Shown here: positions 39,328-40,569 of the stretch, piece by piece
Layout: every line of letters starts with the position of its first letter
Position numbering within the stretch: position 1 is the first letter of the stretch
NCBI GenBank assembly: GCA_015057445.1
Contig: SVEI01000015.1
Coordinates: forward strand, 1-46,896
DNA length: 46,896 bases
From: Lachnospiraceae bacterium
Lineage (GTDB): Bacteria; Bacillota; Clostridia; Lachnospirales; Lachnospiraceae
Reading direction: 5' to 3'
Program-made: the position numbers and the translations under genes
The notes under the pieces: model-generated
What the model saw: only the letters and a program-made list of their open reading frames with translations
What the model was told of the DNA's origin: nothing
Database searches by the model: none

Positions 39328-39873
39328 ATGAAAAATAAAGCAATTTTTATAACATTATATTTGGCAGTAGCTTGTTTTGTTGGAATAGGTACTTACTGTC
39401 TTATAGATTCTGAAGTTCAAAAGAGACAACTAGAAACTACTGAGGCAACTACAGAAGCATACGTAACGGAGGATGGGGATCAGTTTGACCTTGTTGATTC
39501 TGTAGATAGCCATGTTGCAAGTCAGCAGGAAGATGTTACCACAGAGTATATGGCAGATCAGTTATCTCCGGATTTTGAAAGTTATGATGCAGATAACCCA
39601 GATAATCCAGTAGGAGAATCTTGGTATGTTCCAACTACGGAAGCAACAACAGAGGCTCCAAAGAATGAGCCAACCACACAGGCGCCAGCAAATACACAGG
39701 CACCTGCAACTACACAGGCACCTGCTACCACACAGGCACCTGCAACTACACAGGCACCTGCTACAACAGAAGCGCCAACAGAGGCTCCTACGGAGGCTCC
39801 TACAGAAGCACCAACAGAGGCTCCAACAGAGGCACCTGCCCCAGAACCAACACCAGAAGTTCCAACGGAGTAG
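39328..39873 (+). CDS. Membrane-anchored Thr/Glu/Ala/Pro-repeat protein, function unknown
   Basis: The 181-residue protein has one N-terminal membrane helix or uncleaved signal (about 4-26, IFITLYLAVACFVGIGTYCL), an acidic spacer (about 27-105) and a C-terminal low-complexity region of TQAPA and TEAP repeats (about 106-181). No folded domain is seen, so it is probably an extended stalk outside the cell, perhaps in or across the wall. The Thr-Glu-Ala-Pro composition resembles the insert in the adaptor protein at 7400-8833. Its stop codon TAG (39871-39873) lies within the left terminal repeat of the palindromic element, and its terminator is inside that element. Confidence 0.8.
   Translation: MKNKAIFITLYLAVACFVGIGTYCLIDSEVQKRQLETTEATTEAYVTEDGDQFDLVDSVDSHVASQQEDVTTEYMADQLSPDFESYDADNPDNPVGESWYVPTTEATTEAPKNEPTTQAPANTQAPATTQAPATTQAPATTQAPATTEAPTEAPTEAPTEAPTEAPTEAPAPEPTPEVPTE
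39640..39864 (+). repeat. Tandem repeat array coding TQAPA/TEAP
   Basis: The DNA shows imperfect tandem units of 12-15 bases such as ACACAGGCACCTGC and GAGGCTCCTAC. Units are coding and in frame, so number can change without frameshift. The array is a likely site of strain-to-strain length variation. Confidence 0.8.
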
Positions 39874-39906
39874 CTCATAAACTACATTATAAGAATTTGA
39901 AAAGTC

Positions 39907-39945
39907 GACTAACCTTAACATTATGCTTAAGGTTAGTCTTTTTTT
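39907..39945 (+). terminator. Terminator of the TEAP-repeat gene inside the element
   Basis: GACTAACCTTAA (39907-39918) and TTAAGGTTAGTC (39927-39938) form a perfect 12-bp stem with an 8-nt loop and seven T residues. Confidence 0.9.
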
Positions 39946-39947
39946 AC

Positions 39948-40171
39948 GGCTTGAGACTATGGGTATTCCACTACACGCTGCGCTGTGGGTATTTTGTTCA
40001 GCCCAGAGTTACTTCGCGACTGTGTCCGGCCACCGCCGCAAAGCCACCATCCTGGTTCAGTTGCGGCTATTTTGGCGTCCATGCCAAAATGTGGCCTAAG
40101 TTATTCACTGGGCTGACAAAATTCACCCACGACTCCGCTATCGTAGTGTGAACACCCATAGCTCTCAAGCC
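39948..40171. ncRNA. Candidate structured RNA / palindromic core with a three-way junction
   Basis: GGCTTGAGACTATGGGT (39948-39964) pairs with 40154-40171 with one bulge. The stem continues through CACTAC/GTAGTG (39969-39974/40143-40148), GTGGGT/ACCCAC (39985-39990/40125-40130), ATTTTGT/ACAAAAT (39991-39997/40116-40122) and CAGCCCAG/CTGGGCTG (39999-40006/40108-40115). GGCCAC/GTGGCC (40028-40033/40091-40096) then closes a junction with hairpins GCCGCAA/TTGCGGC (40035-40041/40061-40067, containing ACCA/TGGT) and ATTTTGGC/GCCAAAAT (40069-40076/40083-40090). The strand that is transcribed cannot be told, since the fold works on both. Confidence 0.5.
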
Positions 40172-40249
40172 TTACAGGGTCTCATATCAAGCATAATGCT
40201 AAGGTGTCGACTTTTCAATGCCTTCGGCAAGGTAGTTTCCGTACGCAAA

Positions 40250-40284
40250 GAAAACACCGGCACATAAGGTTATGTACCGGTGTT
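40250..40284 (-). terminator. Terminator of the argH-small gene transcript inside the element
   Basis: A stem of AACACCGG..ACATAA (40253-40267) with TTATGT..CCGGTGTT (40270-40284) is followed on the minus strand by TTTTCTTT. It lies 36 bp past the stop of the minus-strand gene. Confidence 0.85.
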
Positions 40285-40320
40285 AAACTTTCACTAACTT
40301 CTTATAATGTAGTTTATGAG

Positions 40321-40569
40321 CTACTGGTGAAATCCTTCGGCTTCATCTTCGGCAGGAAGGTTATCGAAGAGGATTTCTCCAATATTAAGATCTACTGTGT
40401 CAAGGTCTTTTAGGATTTGGACTTCAGAGTTCTTTGGATTGATTTCCTCATTAAGCTGCTCCACTATCTCTTTGGAGAGACCAGACATAAGAACAACTTC
40501 ATCGATATCTATATGTCCTTTAAGCATCTTTCTTGCTAACTCGTATTGTCCTTTGGTTGTATTGTTCAT
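40321..40569 (-). CDS. Small acidic protein, function unknown
   Basis: The 82-residue protein begins MNNTTKGQYELARKMLKGHI, then DIDEVVLMSGLSKEIVEQL, followed by an acidic tail. The first 40 residues resemble the short C-terminal helical tail of Rpn/PD-(D/E)XK transposase-like proteins (K..YE.ARKML..G.....I...TGLS.EEI..L), so this may be a leftover domain or an independent small helix-turn-helix protein. Start at 40569 has AAAGGTG eight bases upstream on the minus strand. It lies 31 bp after argH on the same strand and is probably co-transcribed with it. Its stop codon TAG lies within the right terminal repeat of the palindromic element. Confidence 0.75.
   Translation of the reverse strand: MNNTTKGQYELARKMLKGHIDIDEVVLMSGLSKEIVEQLNEEINPKNSEVQILKDLDTVDLNIGEILFDNLPAEDEAEGFHQ

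Follow-up and report, generated by a model that had tools for sequence, protein, structure and literature searches.

A probable composite palindromic repeat with a TwoAYGGAY RNA core and terminator-like hairpins between two converging genes of a Lachnospiraceae genome

The 457-bp stretch at the junction of two converging genes in a Lachnospiraceae genome (positions 39869-40325 of the window, i.e. of the whole 46,896 nucleotides of DNA that were analysed) probably harbours a non-autonomous composite palindromic repeat, apparently a recent copy, with an RNA core and terminator-like hairpins. Its left neighbour is a 181-aa proline/threonine-rich ORF located behind a sigma-factor gene. This ORF (39328-39873) has C-terminal TEAP-type repeats; the sole Pfam hit, to Cementoin at 30.6 bits (cut-off 27), probably reflects low complexity. 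The right neighbour, an 82-aa ORF downstream of argininosuccinate lyase, has no Pfam match. The 82-aa protein was found in 35 of the 37 genomes of the genus, and the 12 named relatives of its gene are all from Lachnospiraceae MAGs, a ruminant being named for 6 of them. A different long hairpin, with arms around GGGGCTGTCGCAATAAGGATTT, was seen by eye downstream of the 82-aa ORF in another genome (G034, L081). Gene names given to neighbours of the element and its copies (gltX, proC, prsA, dut, chemoreceptor, antiporter) were read from the sequences and are putative. Below, G000 designates the window's genome, C28 the site of the window copy, and other G numbers further genomes.

Terminal inverted repeats and boundaries of the element

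The initial annotation had described a 27-bp perfect terminal inverted repeat, and positions 39869-39895 are indeed the exact reverse complement of 40299-40325. Each end includes, as it had also reported, the TAG stop codon of the convergent gene on that side (39871-39873 on the plus strand, 40321-40323 on the minus strand), and a second perfect inverted repeat of 13 bp lies inside (39897-39909 and 40206-40218). Stretched to 30 nt, the outer arms are still 97% complementary. Such precision was rightly judged to be far beyond chance: at the base composition of the window, 7 × 10−9 pairs of arms of at least 27 bp within 600 bp are expected per window, and one was found. A scan for nested inverted repeats over the window and 20 stretches (359,136 bases, about 13% of the source genome) gave two places with a score of at least 40 against none in one shuffled copy, and 13 against 3 at a laxer threshold, the window element ranking at the top in both cases. 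The 457 nt fold as a single hairpin (z = -15.5 over 100 shuffles), which is more stable on the minus strand (-230.0 kcal/mol) than on the plus strand (-211.8 kcal/mol).

The span framed by the 27-bp repeats is correct as a repeat, but the element proper is shorter. Its match to a paralogue on contig C84 of the same genome stops at 39877 and 40317, that is 8 bp inside these ends; it terminates in ATAAAC..GTTTAT, and the flanks directly beyond are GCTC and GAGC. These boundaries rest on the genome BLAST search, the C84 piece used for the pairwise alignment having been cut at its own repeats. Because the paralogue match ends there, the outer 8 bp on each side (AGTAGCTC and GAGCTACT), stop codons included, are probably host sequence, which matches by chance or has been made to match. 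Co-evolved gene ends, an idea raised in the initial annotation, are possible for these outer 8 bp only. The resulting organization is as follows:

39869-39876: probable host flank, inverse match to the other side, with TAG 39871-39873 of the 181-aa gene (outside the C84 match)
39877-39895, plus strand: left terminal inverted repeat, ATAAACTACATTATAAGAA (repeat search, C84 match, arm comparison)
39897-39909: left arm of the inner module, TTGAAAAGTCGAC, pairing with 40206-40218 (repeat search)
39907-39945, plus strand: terminator-like hairpin toward the left gene, 12-bp stem 39907-39938 followed by seven T (terminator scan)
39945-40174, minus strand: long imperfect hairpin enclosing the RNA motif, arms 39945-39968 and 40150-40174 (repeat search, folds)
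39975-40140, minus strand: TwoAYGGAY RNA (RF01731), forming the hairpin's tip (Rfam covariance model, 67.1 bits, gathering 43)
40206-40218: right arm of the inner module (repeat search)
40219-40229: small TGCCTTCGGCA hairpin adjoining the module, similar small ones standing beside sister copies (by eye)
40253-40284, minus strand: terminator-like hairpin toward the 82-aa gene, 14-bp stem, with close copies on C84 and C108 (terminator scan, BLAST)
40299-40317, minus strand: right terminal inverted repeat (repeat search, C84 match, arm comparison)
40318-40325: probable host flank, with TAG 40321-40323 (minus strand) of the 82-aa gene (outside the C84 match)

The interior is not featureless: a catalogued RNA family lies in it, along with the two terminator-like hairpins. 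The RF01731 match covers the full model length (1-168); one AYGGAY loop is the canonical AUGGAC (40082-40077) and the other a degenerate AGGAU (40053-40049). Each strand presents a G+C-containing stem and a T-run, at 39907-39938 (plus) and 40284-40253 (minus), as in a bidirectional intrinsic terminator. Five terminator-like sites were found in 1 kb for 0.8 expected: these two gene-facing ones, a weak one within the element at 40146-40127, and another two in the gene on the left. A candidate promoter before the RNA (TTGAAA-N17-TATGCT, 40218-40190, minus strand) is not claimed, because its second hexamer is lost in sister copies, as seen by eye; promoter-like sites numbered 4 in 1 kb for 1.3 expected.

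Copies, occupied sites and empty sites

The suggestion that the element is multi-copy was borne out by a near-identical paralogue on C84 and further copies in relatives. BLAST of the element against its own genome aligned C84 with query positions 9-380 (97%) and 374-449 (88%). Over 39877-40317, the 571-bp C84 element shares 426 of 440 aligned bases with the window copy, with one 129-base gap. These 129 bases of C84 are missing from the window copy near 40249, by deletion here or insertion there. On contig C108, behind proC, two terminators stand within matching ends without the RNA motif, and a short hairpin lies elsewhere on the contig. The best match of the window element in another species is in G003 (82% over 197 bases). 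A second repeated hairpin family, with a stem around CTGACCGTTTTAAGTGTCAG, occurs in the source genome (L096:14911-15035, L098:120-215, L105:11123-11220) and, by eye, in L146 and L147; it is also nested in composite elements of G003, and its L096 copy matches no Rfam family at gathering score.

The converging gene pair is kept in G003, G018 and G012 with only one short terminator at the junction, and the named records SVEC01000007.1, JAFTPO010000019.1 and JAFWZV010000010.1, which hold the junction sequences of these three genomes, show the same empty sites. With this state shared by three near relatives, the window copy looks newly gained, one gain in the window lineage being simpler than three losses. 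An empty site in which both genes end differently would, according to the initial annotation, have favoured a mobile element: the empty site exists, but both proteins end there at about the same point, with their own stops, as judged by eye, and the proposal that the insertion supplied the stop codons is not supported. The site after gltX is occupied in G003, G031 and G012 (in G012 without the RNA motif) and empty in G000 and G018, the gene on the far side having changed in some genomes. In G031, a 5-bp GTCTA repeat surrounds the inner hairpin at this site and is single in G012; it may be an insertion scar or the product of a slippage deletion. The 480 bases inspected at this G031 site show no second arm. 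The C84 junction carries in G018 a larger version of the element with two RNA motifs. At the occupied sites inspected by eye, no remnant of the relatives' native terminator was found outside the element ends, which counts against simple insertion, as the latter does not predict such a loss.

Distribution of the family

RF01731 was detected in at least 20 of the 37 genomes of the genus, with at least 159 matches and up to at least 35 per genome, and in none of 14 control genomes. A sample of 245 genomes from the class gave matches in 26, with 19 above the cut-off. In the five species that have these ends, converging genes flank 18 of the 20 copies whose context could be classified, and the modules often come as a divergent pair; a cruder count gave 22 of 24 at converging genes. 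Tandem positions dominate in five other genomes sampled (34 of 46), where the sense bias at tandem positions was not significant (22 vs 12, p = 0.12). These context counts treat the modules of a pair separately, and 29 of 95 copies (8 of the 28 from the five species) were dropped as ambiguous or short-flanked.

The end motif gave six exact matches, all in the five genomes and all at copies of the element. With up to two mismatches it matched in 19 of the 37 genomes. As the reversed motif does as well overall, only the surplus over this control in G000 (4 vs 0), G018 (4 vs 1) and G031 (7 vs 2) carries weight. The exact window end had no match in the named genomes. Searches of the phage and plasmid collections with the window element and a G006 copy, and an exact pattern search of viral contigs, gave no match.

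Arms are matched within sites and differ between sites

We compared the outer arms of 11 sites. On average 17.4 of 18 bases agree between the two arms of a site, against 13.6 between an arm and the partners at other sites, a difference reached in none of 20,000 permutations. The within-site figure is inflated, an outer inverted repeat having been the condition for including a site. The informative result is that the ends differ among sites while the pairs hold. Copies cut by contig ends (G003 C2, C7 and C15; G031 C116), one that has lost an arm (G031 C445) and those with no clear outer pair (G031 C65 and C257; G018 C26, C32 and C33; G000 C98) were left out. When arms were instead paired by the motif, 17-18 of 18 bases agreed in 10 of 19 stretches, and nine gave no pair: the four contig-end cases, G031 C445, G012 C6, and G031 C65, C257 and C287. 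In G031 C287 the two arms agree with each other without containing the motif.

At the C84 junction, the ends of G000 and G018 differ by four bases, alike in both arms. Covariation at an orthologous site rests mainly on this junction, where re-insertion may have occurred. In addition, one orthologous TwoAYGGAY element has opposite orientations in two species, where it has like ends and lies between the same genes (L182, G006:C1:552459, vs L199, G035:C3:65463). Template switching between inverted repeats has been described, in passages of PMC8604942, as homogenising the arms and inverting the spacer. Both the better match of a site's own arms and the inversion between G006 and G035 fit such a process.

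Selection on the TwoAYGGAY core

TwoAYGGAY is catalogued, in the part of PMC2864571 that deals with it, as a probable RNA that is probably not cis-regulatory. We analysed folds and mismatches in 95 of the at least 159 RF01731 matches (those of the window and the fetched stretches, leaving out that of L232, G025:C47, and the loci given by the RF01731 search itself). Of these 95 copies, 87 fold better on the TwoAYGGAY strand than on the complementary one (26 of 28 in the five species, 61 of 67 in the others). Mismatches of the inner stem are more often G-T than A-C (73 vs 28 in the five species, 167 vs 83 in the others), a comparison with a mild circularity, since the Rfam model that supplied the strand labels rewards G-U pairs. 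This excess is reversed in mid-stem, where A-C outnumbers G-T (35 vs 8 and 45 vs 28), while the outermost stem gives opposite results in the two groups (G-T 28 vs A-C 12 in the five species, G-T 49 vs A-C 65 in the others). Among 13 pairs of orthologues, W>W double changes affect 25 of 821 base pairs in the inner stem and 8 of 466 in the outer stem; all 34 double changes of the inner stem come from 3 of the 13 pairs, one of them at 64% identity. Strand stability, stem mismatches and double changes taken together, the inner hairpin looks to be under selection as RNA, read from the minus strand, and the outer arms not clearly so, as far as sequence comparison can tell.

Origin of the element and rival explanations

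The initial annotation had likened the element to an IS630/mariner-type MITE, moved in trans by the transposase of an insertion sequence and flanked by a TA target duplication. The element does share with MITEs in general its multiple copies, its inverted-repeat ends and its presence or absence at orthologous sites, and these traits speak for the comparison. The rest is not supported: the paralogue match ends in ATAAAC..GTTTAT, the flanks at other sites are not constantly TA, the ends vary from site to site, and no consistent direct repeat was seen by eye at the site ends, a 3-bp GTC at G003:C25 being the only one. The DDE_3 profile, positive in 3 of 14 control genomes, was absent from all 8 genomes searched, including the single-contig G006 with its 25 TwoAYGGAY copies; absence weighs less in the other seven, which are drafts. 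We consider this origin very improbable, and the IS630/mariner reading is already largely refuted. Movement of a REP/BIME-like element by a RAYT (Y1) transposase would agree with hairpins in inverted pairs and with a Y1_Tnp fragment of 36 positions in G031, which belongs to the five species. This fragment spans only profile positions 86-121 of 121, however, and PF01797, found in 8 of 37 genomes, is absent from G000, G003, G012, G018 and G006. For these genomes, most of them drafts in which a gene may have been missed, this reading too is largely refuted, and we regard it as very improbable.

There are two further explanations. Without any transposition, native bidirectional terminators could have grown where they stood, through quasipalindrome correction combined with internal duplication; the elements reach near both stops, no native terminator remains beside them (by eye) and the arms differ by site, all as such growth would have it. 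Against it stand the near-identical interiors at the unrelated C28 and C84 sites, which call for copying between loci, and we judge it quite unlikely. TwoAYGGAY could otherwise be a non-mobile host RNA that sequesters CsrA, spread by ordinary duplication and retained for its function, a CsrA-binding role having been proposed from motif matches in the relevant passages of PMC4333381. That match to the published CsrA motif, the G-T excess of the inner stem, the strand-specific stability and the presence of CsrA in 33 of the 37 genomes of the genus, G000 included, favour it. The idea is weakened by G006 (one contig of 2.9 Mb, 99% complete), which has 25 copies of the RNA and no CsrA match, unless CsrA was lost there recently. 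Among 18 good genomes, moreover, CsrA is found in 17 and the RNA in 9, orthologous junctions are occupied patchily, and no conserved promoter was seen by eye beside the module. A CsrA-sequestering host RNA thus appears unlikely. It is conceivable, if somewhat doubtful, that in this genus TwoAYGGAY is instead the structured core of a palindromic element, mobile or selfish, in which template switching rewrites the ends at every site and so gives each copy matched ends of its own. The RNA fold would then serve the spread of the element or its tolerance at gene ends rather than CsrA.

The composite palindromic repeat that we favour has three layers. Short terminal inverted repeats near the stop codons of the converging genes form the outermost one. 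Within them, a terminator-like hairpin for each gene stands in for the native terminator seen in relatives and would presumably terminate transcription in vivo. The core is the long hairpin tipped by the TwoAYGGAY RNA. The window copy probably arose recently at this junction, by duplication of an element like that of C84, and would be moved by some enzyme or by replication-linked copying. Template switching or recombination between the repeats would keep the arms alike and sometimes invert the unit.

These results give an orphan Rfam family a genomic context, that of an interspersed repeat with empty sites, and weaken the one published functional idea that we found for it, CsrA binding. The passages on TwoAYGGAY consulted in the literature make no mention of repeats, mobility, terminal repeats or converging genes. 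The pairs of orthologous sites offer material for testing how inverted repeats that lie far apart come to match perfectly. The case also suggests that there are elements which assume the terminator role for ordinary pairs of genes.

Comparison with known repeats

The nearest kinds found in the literature are SPRITE, BOX and RUP (PMC3049150) and the stem-loop families of PMC2267715, and the present element was not found in the passages of these papers that describe them. REP/BIME also consist of palindromes in inverted pairs between genes. REPs of 20-40 bp, the size given in the part of PMC3733652 concerned, are far shorter than the units of the element, and unlike REP/BIME with RAYT, the element resides in a genome without Y1 transposase. 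Homogenised arms and an inverted spacer are common to the element and to the quasipalindromes formed by template switching. Those treated in the relevant passages of PMC8604942 lie in coding genes of yeast, with arms of at least 7 bp and arm spacers of at most 70 bp, whereas here they are bacterial and the spacers span hundreds of bases. SPRITE, BOX and RUP of Streptococcus pneumoniae are likewise small hairpin repeats, interspersed and showing an enrichment between convergent genes, and SPRITE resembles a terminator, as do the hairpins of the element (both according to passages of PMC3049150). Going by these descriptions, the present element is set apart by its larger size, its nested structure, its two terminator-like hairpins, its conserved RNA motif and its site-variable ends.
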